From: Fimbriimonadaceae bacterium
GTDB lineage: Bacteria; Armatimonadota; Fimbriimonadia; Fimbriimonadales; Fimbriimonadaceae
NCBI GenBank assembly: GCA_026129685.1
Contig: JAHCHO010000006.1
Location: 62,001-126,000 of the forward strand
Direction of reading: 5' to 3'
DNA: 64,000 bases
Below the pieces are notes generated by a model. That model was not told the origin of the DNA. It searched no databases and was given only the letters and a program-made list of their open reading frames with translations. The translations under genes were made by a program, and so were the position numbers. The stretch's first letter is position 1, and every line of letters begins with the position of its first letter. Shown here piece after piece: positions 3,531 to 9,366 of this stretch.

Positions 3531-3893
3531 CTATCCACCGTCTCGATGCACGGTCTCCGGGCTGAACGCCGGACAACAGACGGCCACATAGCGACACGGC
3601 CCGTGCGGGGTCCCGTATCGAACCCACTCGCCCGCCGCGACGGCGACCGCCTGCCCCGCCTCGACCTCGATCGTACGGGTCTTGGTCTCGACCCGCAGGA
3701 CGCCCTCGAGCACGAGGCTGTACTCCGAGAACTCGGGGGTCTGGCCGGGCTCTTCCCAGCCCGCCGGGCTCTCCATCACCGCGAGGCTGATCTCATGGTC
3801 GCCCGTGTTGACGCGCCCGACGAACTCCTCGATGACCTTGGGGAGGCTCCCGGCGGCGCGAACGAGGGTCGGATCGGCGATGAGGCGCGCCAT
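3531..3893 (-). CDS. Small cupin-domain protein
   Basis: A 120-residue single-domain cupin. The central part reads like a beta-barrel with the EYSLVLEGVLRVE strand pair, the VEAGQAVAVAAGEW turn and a C-terminal RYVAVCCPAFSP strand, as in sensor or isomerase-type cupins. Metal-ligand histidines of the classical cupin motif are mostly missing, so an enzymatic role is uncertain. Its ATG overlaps the pheS stop by one base (TGATG), so it is translated with pheS from one mRNA. No specific substrate can be assigned. Confidence 0.8.
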   Translation of the reverse strand: MARLIADPTLVRAAGSLPKVIEEFVGRVNTGDHEISLAVMESPAGWEEPGQTPEFSEYSLVLEGVLRVETKTRTIEVEAGQAVAVAAGEWVRYGTPHGPCRYVAVCCPAFSPETVHRDGG

Positions 3894-4891
3894 CAGGCCG
3901 GGAACTGCTCCAAGAATCGCAGGTCGTTCTCGAGGAAGTGGCGCAGGTCGTCCACCCCGTAGCGAAGCATCGGCAGCCTTTCGACGCCGAGCCCGAACGC
4001 GAAGCCGGAGTAGCGCTCACTGTCGATGCCGTAGTGCTCGAGGATGTTCGGGTGGACCAATCCCGCGCCCCCGAGTTCCAGCCATCTCCCGCCCGCGAAC
4101 TTCGGCGTGCTGATCGCGTAGTCCACGCCCGGTTCGACGAACGGAAAGAAGTCGGGCCGAAACCGAATCTTGACCTCCGGGCCGAGCATCGCCCGGGCAA
4201 AGGTGCCCAAGGTCCATTTGAGGTGAGCCATGCTCACACCCTCGTCCACCATAAACACGTCCACTTGGTGGAAGGTGTGGCCGTGAGTCCGGTCCACCGC
4301 TTCGTTCCGAAACGTGCGCCCGACGGTGAACGCACGGATCGGTGGCTTTCGGTTCTCGAACACCCGCCCCTGCAGCGCCGTGCACTGCGTCCGGAGCAAC
4401 AGGTCGCCCTCGACGTAGAAGGTGTCCTGCTCGTCCATCGCCGGATGATCCTCCGGGTAGTTCAGGGCGTCGAAGTTGTAGCGAAACTGCTCCAGTTCGG
4501 GCGACTCGAGGTACTCGAAGCCCAGCCCGACGAACACCTCTTTGATGCGGTCGGTCGTCTGCTGGAGGATGTGGGGGTTCCCGACGCGCCGACGGCGTCC
4601 GGGAAGGCTGACGTCGAGCCGCTCGGCGGCGAACTGGGCGACGCGCTCCCCCGCCCGCAACTCGCTCGCGCGGGCTTCCATCTCCGCCTGGACCCGGGCG
4701 GCCGCCTCGTTCACGCGTTGCCCGAACGCGGGACGCTCTTCCGCGGGCATCGCGCCGACCGACTTGAGAAGGCCGCGCAGCGCGCCGCTCTTCCCGAGGT
4801 ACTTGCGTTCGACCTCGCGCAGATCCGCGGTGGTCGTCGCCCCCGCGATCTCGGCCCGCGCCTCGGACACCAATTCATCGATGGCTCGCAT
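3893..4891 (-). CDS. pheS: Phenylalanine-tRNA ligase alpha subunit
   Basis: The alpha subunit carries the catalytic core of the alpha2-beta2 enzyme that charges tRNA-Phe. The 332-residue product starts at MRAIDELVSEAR; the open frame extends further upstream but without family similarity. The N-terminal coiled-coil arm spans about residues 5-95. Class II motif 2 is seen as FRNEAVDRTHGHTFHQ and motif 3 as FGLGVERLPMLRYG near the C-terminus. pheS is normally followed by pheT, but here it is followed by a cupin gene, and pheT lies 2.4 kb away on the other strand. Confidence 0.97.
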   Translation of the reverse strand: MRAIDELVSEARAEIAGATTTADLREVERKYLGKSGALRGLLKSVGAMPAEERPAFGQRVNEAAARVQAEMEARASELRAGERVAQFAAERLDVSLPGRRRRVGNPHILQQTTDRIKEVFVGLGFEYLESPELEQFRYNFDALNYPEDHPAMDEQDTFYVEGDLLLRTQCTALQGRVFENRKPPIRAFTVGRTFRNEAVDRTHGHTFHQVDVFMVDEGVSMAHLKWTLGTFARAMLGPEVKIRFRPDFFPFVEPGVDYAISTPKFAGGRWLELGGAGLVHPNILEHYGIDSERYSGFAFGLGVERLPMLRYGVDDLRHFLENDLRFLEQFPA

Positions 4892-5022
4892 GGACGGGAC
4901 TAGATTGGCGCAAGGGTGGAGCCGAAAGCAACCGAGTCCGAATGTCGGACCCCGTGAGAGACGTGGCTCTCGCTCAACCGGGGCTACAAGGCGCGAAAGG
5001 AGGACTTTTTCGCGGTTCCCCC

Positions 5023-5051
5023 TTGACACCGACCAAAGTCCCGTTTACAAT
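5023..5051 (+). promoter_or_regulatory. Near-consensus sigma70 promoter of the PEP-CTERM gene
   Basis: TTGACA (5023-5028), a 17-base spacer and TACAAT (5046-5051): eleven of twelve consensus bases with ideal spacing. The expected start is near 5058, giving a leader of about 50 bases that includes a GGAG just upstream of the ATG at 5107. This is one of the strongest-looking promoters in the window and implies high expression. Confidence 0.88.
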
Positions 5052-5106
5052 GGTGTCAACGGAAAAAGCGCCTCTGCGTGCTGACCGTCGGACTGGAGTA
5101 GGACAA

Positions 5107-5796
5107 ATGAAGAAGCTTCTCATCGCGGCGTTCGCCGCTTCCTTGTCGTCGGGCGTGTTCGCCCAGGCTCTCAACGAGGGATTCGACGATATCACGACCC
5201 TTACCGGTAGCGGTTGGGCGTTCCAGAACCTGAGCGTCGCGGGCGGCACCGCCACGTACTTCCAGGGCAACAGCACCGTCTTCGCCGCCAACTCCGGCGC
5301 GGCGACCTCCTACCTCGGGGTCAACTTCAACAGCACGACCGGCGCGAACACCATCAGCAACTGGGCGTTCATGCCGACCCGGGTCTGGAGCAACGGAGAC
5401 CAGATCTCCTTCTTCACCCGGACCGTGACGGGCAACATCTTCCCAGATCGCCTTCAGCTTCGCCTGAGCCTCAACGGCAGCAGCGTGAACGCGGGCGCGA
5501 CGCCGACCAGCGTGGGCGACTTCACGACGCTCTTGCTCGACATCAACCCGACCTACCAGACGGGCGCCGCGAACTACCCGGAGACTTGGACCCAGTTCTC
5601 CGCCACGATCTCCGGCCTCGGCGGACCGACGAGCGGTCGCGCCGCCTTCCGGTACTTCGTCGAGGACGGTGGCCCCGCCGGCAACAACTCGAACTACATT
5701 GGCATCGACGATGCCGCCGTCGTTCCCGAGCCCGCGAGCATGGCCGTTCTGGGCCTTGGCCTTCTGCCCCTCCTGAAGCGCCGCCGCAAGGCCTAA
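5107..5796 (+). CDS. PEP-CTERM sorting domain protein
   Basis: A 229-residue exported protein. The start at 5107 gives a signal peptide (MKKLLIAAFAASLSSGVFAQ); the frame is open upstream but the promoter and a GGAG place the start here. The mature part is rich in Ser, Thr, Asn and Gly and looks like a beta-rich domain. The C-terminus has the tripartite PEP-CTERM signal: VPEPAS, a hydrophobic stretch, then RRRKA. Such proteins are processed by an exosortase; none is seen in the window. Its molecular role is unknown. A strong terminator follows. Confidence 0.9.
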   Translation: MKKLLIAAFAASLSSGVFAQALNEGFDDITTLTGSGWAFQNLSVAGGTATYFQGNSTVFAANSGAATSYLGVNFNSTTGANTISNWAFMPTRVWSNGDQISFFTRTVTGNIFPDRLQLRLSLNGSSVNAGATPTSVGDFTTLLLDINPTYQTGAANYPETWTQFSATISGLGGPTSGRAAFRYFVEDGGPAGNNSNYIGIDDAAVVPEPASMAVLGLGLLPLLKRRRKA

Positions 5797-5971: not shown

Positions 5972-7249
5972 TCATCGCGTACCGCTTCCGAGTCGCCCCA
6001 TCCGTAGGGGCGGGCCACTCAGGAGCGCTTGCTTGGCCGCTTCAACGAGCCTTCGGCCCGTCTGCGGACCGTGCAAAGCGAGGGACGCCTCGTAGCCGCC
6101 GCGAGCATAGTCGTCCTCCGCCAGCACGTAGCCGATCCACTCGTTCGCAAACCCGATCACGGTCGCCGCCGCCAGATCGCCGACCATCGCGCGTCCGATC
6201 TCGGCGGTCGGCTCGGCCGGGACGGCGATCAGTGCGACCTCGCCCAGGCGAATGACGAGCACCGTCGCCTCGGTGGGGGCGAACTTGCCGACGAGCAAAG
6301 CGGCAAGCGGTTCGGGCACCTTGTTCGTTTCGACGAAAGCCGGACTCGGGCTCGGCTTCTCGAGCCGCACGGGGGCGGTCGATACCGAGAGGCTCGGGCG
6401 CAGGATTGCCCGACGCCGCGCCTTGTCCATCGTCGCCTGCAAGGCATGCGCGAACGCCTCCACCTTGGCCGCGCCGTCGGCCGTCTCAACTTCTGGCGCG
6501 GGAGAAACGTCCCCGATCGCTCCGACGAAGGGCGCAAGCACCGAGCGACGAGCCCACTGGCCCGGCCAGTCCGTGCGACGCCGGTTCTCCTCGGCGCCAT
6601 TGAGCGTCGGATGGGCCGGGAAGACGCCGAGCAGAGGGCGCCCCCCGATCCAAAGCCCGAACGCGGTGGGATCGGGCTTCGCTCCGGGTCGCCGGGCGCG
6701 GTTAAGCCAAGCGCCGGAGGCGTACCGGGGAGTCCACCGTGCCCACTCGAGAGGACCGGATTCCGGTCTCGCGACGAGCGCCTCACGGATGCCTTCCGCG
6801 ATTCGGTCGGCGTACCACTCGAGCCAGCGAGGACGGTAGGTGGCGATCCCCGGAATCTTCATCGTCATCCGGTCGTTCAGCATCTGGCTGTCTGGCGCGC
6901 AGTGCGTGTGGGTCGCGGCGAGAACGAGGACGACGTCGGAAGGCAACCGGGCTCGTACTTCCCGGCTCAGGCTACCGGGAACGGTCAGGGAGTCGAGGCT
7001 CACCAAGGCCACCCGCGTGGTCCCTTGCTCGAGGACGATCGTTCGCGCGCGCAGATCGTCGCCCCCGGGGAGGGCGATCGCGTCGCGCCGCTCGGTGTAT
7101 CCGCCGAGAGGAAGCGGCTCGGGAGGGACGATCGAGACGTCGCCGCGGCGGACGACGAGGGGGGGCGCCAGGAGCAGGACGGCTAGAATCGGGATCAACG
7201 GTGTGACTATACGCCCGCACCGACCCAAACCGTGTCGGTCAACTTGCAT
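5972..7249 (-). CDS. Neutral/alkaline ceramidase-like secreted or anchored protein
   Basis: About 425 residues from the ATG at 7249; an ATG at 7270 is an alternative. An N-terminal hydrophobic segment (TPLIPILAVLLLAPPLVV) acts as signal or anchor. The following region has the fold signature of the neutral ceramidase N-terminal domain: a glycine-proline rich start (PPEPLPLGGYTER), a RTIVLEQGTTRVALVSLDSL strand and the zinc-binding THTHC. The protein is much shorter than full ceramidases (over 600 residues), so sphingolipid hydrolysis is not certain. Proteins of this type without clear function are common in Planctomycetes and relatives. It lies divergent from pheT. Confidence 0.7.
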   Translation of the reverse strand: MQVDRHGLGRCGRIVTPLIPILAVLLLAPPLVVRRGDVSIVPPEPLPLGGYTERRDAIALPGGDDLRARTIVLEQGTTRVALVSLDSLTVPGSLSREVRARLPSDVVLVLAATHTHCAPDSQMLNDRMTMKIPGIATYRPRWLEWYADRIAEGIREALVARPESGPLEWARWTPRYASGAWLNRARRPGAKPDPTAFGLWIGGRPLLGVFPAHPTLNGAEENRRRTDWPGQWARRSVLAPFVGAIGDVSPAPEVETADGAAKVEAFAHALQATMDKARRRAILRPSLSVSTAPVRLEKPSPSPAFVETNKVPEPLAALLVGKFAPTEATVLVIRLGEVALIAVPAEPTAEIGRAMVGDLAAATVIGFANEWIGYVLAEDDYARGGYEASLALHGPQTGRRLVEAAKQALLSGPPLRMGRLGSGTR

Positions 7250-7311
7250 TGCCGCCCCGGGATCGGGCATGGTTCAAGGGAGCCGCGCCTCGTGCGGCGG
7301 AAGACCGATCT

Positions 7312-9366
7312 ATGAAGTTCCCGTGTTCGATGCTCCGCGACTACGTCGAAACCTCCCTCGACGCCCACCAGATCGGCGACCTGCTGACGATGGCGGGGTT
7401 CGAGTTGGAAGGCGCCGAGCCGTTGGGCGATGACGTCGTGCTCGACGTCAAGGTGATGTCCAATCGGGGCGACGGGCTGTCGGTGTTCGGGCTCGCCCGG
7501 GAGGTGCTCGCCAAGGATCGGCAGAGCCGCCCGACCCCTCTCTACGAGCGGGCCTCCACCCGGTTTTCGCTCCCCGAGTCCGCCGGAACCGTGGCCGACC
7601 GAACCTCGGTCGCCATCGAAACCCCGGCCTGCCGACGCTATGCCTGCCGAATCTTCGACGAGCCGCCCTTGGAAGGAACCCCGGCCCTGATCCGCGAGCG
7701 GCTGGAAGCGTCCGGGATGCGTTCGATCAACCTCGTCGTCGACCTCACCAACTACGTGATGCTCGAACTCGGCCAGCCGCTCCACGCCTTCGACATGGAC
7801 ACCTTGGGCGGCGGCCGTATCGTCGTCCGCCAGGCTCGCGACAACGAGCGGCTCACGACCCTCGATGGGAAAGTGCACGCGCTCGCGCCGGAAATGATGA
7901 TGATCTGCGACGCCGATCGGCCCGTCGCGGTCGCGGGGGTCATGGGCGGCGCGGAAACCGAGGTCTCGGCTTCCACCAAGACGGTGCTCCTGGAGTCGGC
8001 CAGCTTCGTCAACTTGTCCGTCCGCAAGACACGGAAACGGCTCGGTCTGAACACGGAGGCGTCGTACCGTTTCGAGCGAAGCGTCGACCCCGACGGCGTC
8101 GTCGCGGCGCTGAACCGCTTCGCCGAACTGCTGGCGGAGGTGGACGGAGGAGCCTCGCGCGTCCCCGGCGTCTTGGACGTCTACCCCGATCCCCCCAAGC
8201 CCGTCGCGATCCCGCTCCGTCACGCGCGCACCGAGCGACTCCTGGGGATGGCCGTCACGCCGGTGCAGATGGCGCACTACCTCGAGCGGCTCGGGTGCCG
8301 GGTGGAGAGTCCGCTCGACGACGCCGACTTCTCGATCACGCCTCCCTCGTGGCGCCCCGACCTGGTTCGCGAAGACGACCTCATCGAGGAGATCGGGAGA
8401 GTCCACGGGTTCGAGACGATCCCTGAGACCCCGATCCACGGTTCGGCCACCCCCGGCGGCGTGTTCGGCGTCTACCGGTTCATCGACCAGGTCCGCGAGG
8501 CGATGCTTCGGCTGGGCTACACCCAGGTCATCAGCCACACCCTTCGCGACGAGCATCCCCTCGACTTCGGCGGGTTGTTCAAGGCGCGGGTCAAGAACCC
8601 GGTCTCGCCGGAGACCGCGATGCTTCGCAACTCGCTCCTTCCCTGCCTCGCCGACGCCGCTCTGCGCAACGGGGGGCGCGACCTTCACCTTTTCGAGATC
8701 GGCAAGGTGTTCACCCGGGGCGAGTTCCAGTTCGACGAAAGCCCGGAACTCGCGATCTTGAGCACCGGACGCCTCGATCAAGTCCATTGGCGCGACGGCG
8801 CTTCGGCGGAAGCCGACTTCTACGAACTGAAGGGCGTCGTCGAGCAGATGGGTGAGATCGTCCGCACTGAACTGCACGTCGAGCCCGTCGTGACCCCGGA
8901 CCCACGCTTCCACCCGACCCGACAGGCGGCTCTGCTCACGACCGACGACGTGCTGGTGGGCGGGTTCGGGGTGATCCACCCGGACGTGGCGGAGGCGGTC
9001 GGCCTCCCCACGAACACCCTGATGGCGGAGATGGATCTGCTGGCGTTCTACCGAGGCGACCACGACCACCTTCACCTGCGCTCGATCAGCCGAAACCCGG
9101 CCGTTCGCCGGGATATCGCCTTCCAGATCGCCAAGGACGTGCCTTGGTCGGCGGTCGAGACGACGATTCGCGAGGCGGCGGGCGAGGTGCTGGAGAAGCA
9201 GTGGCTTTTCGACGTCTACGAGGGAGCCGGTTTGCCGGAGGGCACCCACAGCCTCGCGGTGGCGATGCAATTGCGTAAGCCGTCGAACTTCACGGACGAG
9301 GAAGCGAACCAGGTGCGGGACGCGGTCGTGGCGGCGCTCGCCGGGTTGGGGGCGAAACCGCGCTAG
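7312..9366 (+). CDS. pheT: Phenylalanine-tRNA ligase beta subunit lacking the N-terminal tRNA-binding domain
   Basis: The beta subunit supports the catalytic alpha subunit, edits mischarged Tyr and binds tRNA. The 684-residue product starts MKFPCSMLRDYV, as in the family. After only about 40 residues it runs directly into the B1 motif DVVLDVKVMSNRGD (41-54), which in typical 790-810 residue PheT proteins comes about 110 residues later. The EMAP-II-like OB fold (domain B2) is therefore missing. The B3/B4 editing domain, the B5 domain (TPPSWRPDLVREDDLIEEIG) and the C-terminal FDX-ACB domain are present. The start is set by the conserved MKF and a GGAAG upstream. It is split from pheS. Confidence 0.96.
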   Translation: MKFPCSMLRDYVETSLDAHQIGDLLTMAGFELEGAEPLGDDVVLDVKVMSNRGDGLSVFGLAREVLAKDRQSRPTPLYERASTRFSLPESAGTVADRTSVAIETPACRRYACRIFDEPPLEGTPALIRERLEASGMRSINLVVDLTNYVMLELGQPLHAFDMDTLGGGRIVVRQARDNERLTTLDGKVHALAPEMMMICDADRPVAVAGVMGGAETEVSASTKTVLLESASFVNLSVRKTRKRLGLNTEASYRFERSVDPDGVVAALNRFAELLAEVDGGASRVPGVLDVYPDPPKPVAIPLRHARTERLLGMAVTPVQMAHYLERLGCRVESPLDDADFSITPPSWRPDLVREDDLIEEIGRVHGFETIPETPIHGSATPGGVFGVYRFIDQVREAMLRLGYTQVISHTLRDEHPLDFGGLFKARVKNPVSPETAMLRNSLLPCLADAALRNGGRDLHLFEIGKVFTRGEFQFDESPELAILSTGRLDQVHWRDGASAEADFYELKGVVEQMGEIVRTELHVEPVVTPDPRFHPTRQAALLTTDDVLVGGFGVIHPDVAEAVGLPTNTLMAEMDLLAFYRGDHDHLHLRSISRNPAVRRDIAFQIAKDVPWSAVETTIREAAGEVLEKQWLFDVYEGAGLPEGTHSLAVAMQLRKPSNFTDEEANQVRDAVVAALAGLGAKPR

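Follow-up and report, generated by a model that had tools for sequence, protein, structure and literature searches.

A bacterial-type phenylalanyl-tRNA synthetase β-subunit without the B2 domain in Armatimonadota

The β-subunit (PheT) of bacterial phenylalanyl-tRNA synthetase (PheRS), represented by the model TIGR00472 and by the chains 3pco_B of E. coli and 1pys_B of T. thermophilus, usually harbors the tRNA-binding OB-fold domain B2. In the PheRS β-subunits of archaea and eukaryotes (TIGR00471; human 3l4g_B) B2 is absent, and the human chain is also devoid of B8; to our knowledge, β-subunits of this type have no FDX-ACB domain. Deletion of B2 from the E. coli PheRS was reportedly described by Roy and Ibba in 2006, the domain being said to be dispensable there and yet to contribute to editing. 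B2 is also missing in many PheRS β-subunits of the candidate phyla radiation (CPR) (Mukai et al., 2017; PMC5370408) and, since these B2-less chains are named PheRS β in print, B2 is not taken here as defining for this subunit.

The window studied here, i.e., the whole stretch of 64,000 nucleotides analyzed from a Fimbriimonadaceae bacterium, encodes a PheT that shares with the bacterial β-subunits the TIGR00472 cut-off, the domain order, and the editing and anticodon residues, but differs from those of E. coli and T. thermophilus in having no B2 and a B1 domain predicted to be closed by a short turn. From the archaeal/eukaryotic β-subunits it is set apart by falling below the TIGR00471 cut-off and by possessing an FDX-ACB domain (PF03147). 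Like the B2-less CPR subunits (17 aligned proteins), it shows the same excision point of B2 and retains B8; in CPR, however, chains with and without B2 coexist and substitutions of the editing glutamate are frequent, whereas in Armatimonadota the trait is fixed and the editing site is intact. The deletion attributed to Roy and Ibba, which is said to have removed the domain that is missing here, is a laboratory construct, in contrast to the natural and seemingly old state of the present case. We consider it highly probable that the window encodes a bacterial-type PheRS β-subunit without the B2 insert of B1, that this absence is fixed across the Armatimonadota, and that charging and cis editing continue. 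The best reading is that a dispensable domain was lost long ago.

Domain content, B2 junction, and gene order

The pheT gene and its parts are the following.

7312..9366, plus strand: pheT, PheRS β-subunit without B2, 684 aa (Pfam, TIGR00472)
7312..7428, plus strand: initial segment of B1, residues 1-39 (aligned to E. coli residues 1-39; model strand 31-38)
7426..7431, plus strand: junction Gly39-Asp40, site of B2 (~110 residues) in other bacteria (alignments; model turn)
7429..7536, plus strand: remaining segment of B1, residues ~40-75 with an approximate end (alignment, model)
7627..8145, plus strand: B3/B4 editing domain, residues 106-278 (PF03483, E 8.7e-64)
8209..8412, plus strand: B5 domain, residues 300-367 (PF03484)
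8419..9039, plus strand: catalytic-like (CLM, B6/B7) domain, residues 370-576 (PF17759)
9088..9360, plus strand: B8/FDX-ACB anticodon-binding domain, residues 593-683 (PF03147)

The frame is unbroken over 684 codons, from the ATG at 7312 to the TAG ending at 9366. Its product scores 508.2 bits with TIGR00472 (cut-off 402.65), the model being matched from position 157 onward, and 97.8 bits with TIGR00471, which is below the cut-off of 282.65. The order B1, B3/4, B5, B6/7, B8 is as expected for a bacterial β-subunit, and a preliminary description of the locus was correct in stating that all domains except B2 are kept, as B3_4, B5, CLM, and FDX-ACB are found by Pfam and B1 by alignment. The OB fold of B2 (tRNA_bind, PF01588) was not detected in PheT by Pfam. 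PheT is an otherwise ordinary bacterial-type PheRS β-subunit from which B2 is really and cleanly missing.

The same description had placed a clean internal absence of B2 after about 40 normal residues. In the alignment with E. coli PheT, residues 1-39 indeed pair with residues 1-39, and residue 40 pairs with residue 154. A similar jump is seen in genome G153, where the match to model positions 1-40 stops at 1184591 and the match from position 158 sets in at 1184595. In an alignment of 150 proteins, whose rows are fetched loci only, mostly best-scoring ones rather than a random sample, the stretch corresponding to B2 is 0-14 residues long in the 87 rows from Armatimonadota (the slot is empty in 72 of them, the window PheT included), 107-128 residues in 46 rows from B2-bearing proteins, and 0-7 residues in 17 rows from B2-less Patescibacteria. 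Lengths of 0-14 versus 107-128 residues rule out both chance and a strongly diverged OB domain in PheT, so that the comparison with relatives and other phyla proposed earlier finds the domain missing and not diverged. The earlier wording of an absent “N-terminal tRNA-binding OB domain” holds for the absence, but “N-terminal” is loose because B2 is inserted inside B1.

An AlphaFold2 model of PheT (20 sequences, mean pLDDT 84.2, pTM 0.55) places strands 31-38 and 41-47 in a β-hairpin across the junction, in a block with pLDDT values of 85-88; in this model, a short turn closes B1 at the position that B2 would occupy. Compared with solved structures, the model matches bacterial PheT chains over residues 1-684 (best Z 44.0) with an rmsd of 16.2 over 654 residues, which means that the single domains match and that the mutual arrangement of domains in the single-chain model is not reliable.

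The partner subunit and the genes situated between both subunits are listed below.

3893..4891, minus strand: pheS, α-subunit of 332 aa (start at MRAIDEL) with its N-terminal coiled-coil domain (PF02912, PF01409)
4942..5796, plus strand: PEP-CTERM protein gene (PF07589; listed frame, the true start probably lying downstream of 4942)
5972..7270, minus strand: neutral/alkaline ceramidase-like gene (PF04734)

PheS, for which the ATG of MRAIDEL was chosen by us as start, is of ordinary size and provides the only TIGR00468 match of the source genome (303.2 bits), so a partner for PheT is present. The divergent pheS and pheT are separated by two unrelated genes. Such a separation had been called unusual, a view that does not hold within the family: among the 45 genomes of family f1 with both genes listed (counted by hand from tables), pheS and pheT adjoin on one strand in 17, share a strand across a gap of 0.8-2 kb in 7, are divergent neighbors in 3, and lie far apart or on different contigs in 18. 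Another report also states that PheRS genes can be located apart (PMC8464048). Separation of the two genes is not linked to the loss of B2, since the domain is also absent from genomes in which they adjoin.

Editing, tRNA-Phe, and OB proteins in trans

Residues of functional interest in PheT were assigned as follows, the editing residues being those named in PMC12447630.

PheT, plus strand: editing residues R137, T146, N147, H158, G209, E228, T248 (mapped via the T. thermophilus chain)
PheT, plus strand: anticodon-contact residues D634, Y636, S647, R684 (alignment)

In T. thermophilus numbering, all 87 Armatimonadota rows retain N250, H261, G315, and E334, T249 is threonine in 85 and serine in 2 of these rows, and T354 is threonine in 78 and serine in 9. 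The arginine at window position R137 is arginine in 82 and lysine in 4 of the 87. At the positions D729, Y731, and S742, described as contacts of G34 (PMC9976931), the same rows show aspartate in 84, tyrosine or phenylalanine in 86, and serine in 76 cases, respectively. The C-terminal arginine, in our reading the equivalent of T. thermophilus R780, is kept in 81 of the 87.

One might suppose that editing was weakened or lost along with B2 and that the lineage tolerates tyrosine at phenylalanine codons. In line with this, the key editing glutamate (E334) is replaced in 8 of the 17 B2-less Patescibacteria rows, and Roy and Ibba (2006) reportedly ascribe to B2 a contribution to editing, so that some editing cost of the loss is likely. 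However, the four editing residues strictly conserved throughout the Armatimonadota rows point to selection for editing, and we regard a weakening or loss of editing as quite unlikely. It had also been argued that a B2 loss fixed in the lineage must entail another mode of tRNA-Phe binding or of editing; the fixation is borne out (see below), but “must” is overstated, given that the editing and anticodon residues are conserved and the domain is reportedly dispensable (Roy and Ibba, 2006).

Under the preferred reading, in which charging and editing proceed in the absence of B2, the following course seems plausible. A PheS-PheT heterotetramer would bind tRNA-Phe via the coiled coil of PheS, B6, and the anticodon-binding B8, tRNA-Phe would be charged in PheS, and the 3′ end of Tyr-tRNA-Phe would swing into the B3/B4 site. 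Elsewhere, B2 would merely help to hold noncognate aminoacyl-tRNA for editing, so that its loss could be tolerated. The tRNA contacts described for M. tuberculosis PheRS involve α1, β6, β8, and β3/4 (PMC12447630), and Mycoplasma pneumoniae is reported to be viable with a PheT split between B1 and B3 (PMC12494982). A scan of 30 loci out of 44 tRNA matches in the source genome revealed one tRNA-Phe gene, with a GAA anticodon (G34 A35 A36), U20, and A73 (positions numbered by hand); its position 59 is G instead of the U59 of E. coli, a point against this reading. The conserved residues, the ordinary PheS, this tRNA-Phe, and the lack of a further OB protein fit charging and editing without B2. A more specific proposal, which we put forward only tentatively, is that post-transfer editing no longer depends on B2 in this phylum, whose PheRS retains a complete editing site under selection, and that it operates either purely in cis, with no recapture of released Tyr-tRNA-Phe, or with some other surface capturing the tRNA in place of B2.

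A search of the source genome with TIGR00472 detects the window gene and a weak match, which is the C-terminus of MetRS; a second full-length PheT, which the preliminary description would have counted against itself, was not found. Could a separate OB protein, such as Trbp111, YtpR, or an Arc1p-like protein, provide B2 in trans? Some Patescibacteria do possess a stand-alone B2-like gene adjoining a single-chain PheRS (see below), but the search for such a protein that had been suggested yielded none in the source genome (99% complete), its sole PF01588 match being the C-terminal domain of MetRS. Across 291 genomes of the phylum, 13 have no PF01588 match, most have one, and some have a second. 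A trans-acting B2 is nearly refuted for the source genome, and we judge this explanation very improbable.

Spread of the B2-less form within the Armatimonadota

Named relatives (Armatimonadetes, Fimbriimonadales, and Chthonomonas) assign the source genome to the Armatimonadota. TIGR00472 has a match in 289 of 291 genomes of the phylum, in some of them only to a fragment or to the OB domain of MetRS. A genome was judged if its PheT match starts at model position 152-169, i.e., if the stretch just after B2 lies on the contig; this and the corresponding counts for Patescibacteria and Chloroflexota were made by hand from match tables. B2 is present in PheT of 0 of the 258 judged genomes (146 outside family f1, 77 of 85 within f1, and 35 of 60 others), and the fixation proposed for the lineage is thereby upheld. 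The 33 genomes that could not be judged (8 from f1 and 25 from the group of 60) comprise fragments, contig edges, genomes without a match, three archaeal-type PheT, and a broken frame in G019. The B2-less form occurs over family f1 and many other families. An artefact of assembly or gene model has nothing in its favor; the frame is whole here, and all 258 judged genomes, of which several are single-contig, share the architecture, so that it can practically be dismissed, and the earlier denial of an assembly truncation was justified.

B2 absence is a character of the phylum and not an oddity of a single genome, which makes the PheT of Armatimonadota a natural, phylum-wide counterpart of the laboratory deletion. 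By comparing such natural enzymes with those of B2-keeping bacteria, the contribution of B2 to charging and editing becomes testable. The B2-less kind as such is already known from CPR bacteria; its extent across the Armatimonadota was not found in print (open literature, the wider search being by titles and abstracts).

A possible exception is G071, from the same order, which has a normal B2-less PheT and in addition a contig-edge fragment containing B2 (L179; G071:C42:1-1500). This fragment matches TIGR00472 positions 46-229, its frame breaking off some 210 residues in, and may be a chimera, a contamination, or a remnant. Beside it lies a redoxin-like gene similar to one of the source genome. 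Three genomes of one Armatimonadota family (G202, G203, and G204; L181-L183 and L195-L197) encode an archaeal-type PheT of 565-567 aa that exceeds the TIGR00471 cut-off. A pheS frame of 524-619 aa is located near it, and together the two suggest that both PheRS subunits were replaced by transfer.

Other phyla and the origin of the B2-less form

In Chloroflexota, B2 is present in 136 of 136 judged PheT (141 genomes, five of them unjudged owing to no match, a contig edge, or an unlisted row). Among 145 patescibacterial genomes, 37 lack B2 (match start at 149-161), 92 possess it (84 as one match and 8 in pieces), and 16 were unjudged. Some patescibacterial loci looked B2-less by match range alone, an impression not borne out by a whole-genome search of 14 non-Armatimonad genomes: in 13 of them the PheT match starts at model position 1, and in the fourteenth (G302) it is split, with pieces that include model positions 1-131.

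A phylogenetic tree of 70 rows, drawn like the alignment from fetched and mostly best-scoring loci, was constructed with the B2 columns omitted, comprising the window PheT and 22 random rows of 86 from Armatimonadota, all 17 B2-less Patescibacteria, 18 of 28 with B2, 8 of 14 Chloroflexota, and 4 gammaproteobacterial rows. In this quick, unrooted tree with long branches, a branch with an SH-aLRT of 94 separates off the Armatimonadota, which are placed nearer to Chloroflexota and Gammaproteobacteria than to the B2-less Patescibacteria, and the presence or absence of B2 requires at least 7 changes. A single B2-less ancestor gene for Armatimonadota and Patescibacteria, spread by transfer or followed by a later gain of B2 elsewhere, would agree with the identical excision point in both groups, and a topology that holds all B2-less rows together is not rejected by the AU test at the 0.05 level (p 0.0621). 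However, the constrained tree is 55 log units worse and the groups are placed apart, which makes a single origin unlikely in our view. Independent losses of B2 are favored on these grounds, yet not proven.

Several Patescibacteria differ from both layouts. At five loci (L232-L236, in G430, G320, G339, G374, and G401), a stand-alone B2-like OB gene (frames of 135-184 aa) lies directly upstream of a single-chain PheRS of 380-394 aa with a class II core and FDX-ACB in the mitochondrial layout; among NCBIfam models, this PheRS scores best with NF051887 (“mystery ligase SrmL”) and TIGR00469, in each case below cut-off. These genomes have no PheT model and no pheS over cut-off, and the loci have the appearance of a bacterial PheRS made of one subunit, the OB domain being provided in trans; a monomeric PheRS in the candidate phyla radiation was not found in our literature search. 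Six further genomes (G379, G444, G436, G393, G329, and G357), with a PheS-like frame of 332-407 aa below cut-off and neither PheT type over cut-off, probably contain the same one-subunit enzyme.

Two other patescibacterial PheT frames, adjoining a normal pheS, seemingly keep B2 and lack the B3/B4 editing domain: L177 (G314:C12; 640 aa) covers model positions 1-196 and then directly 377-798, and L178 (G386:C21; 618 aa) positions 1-188 and then directly 399-798. In L190 and L191 (G334 and G352), a B1-B2-B1 part of PheT forms a frame of 259-266 aa at or near a contig edge and may represent a split gene or a truncation.
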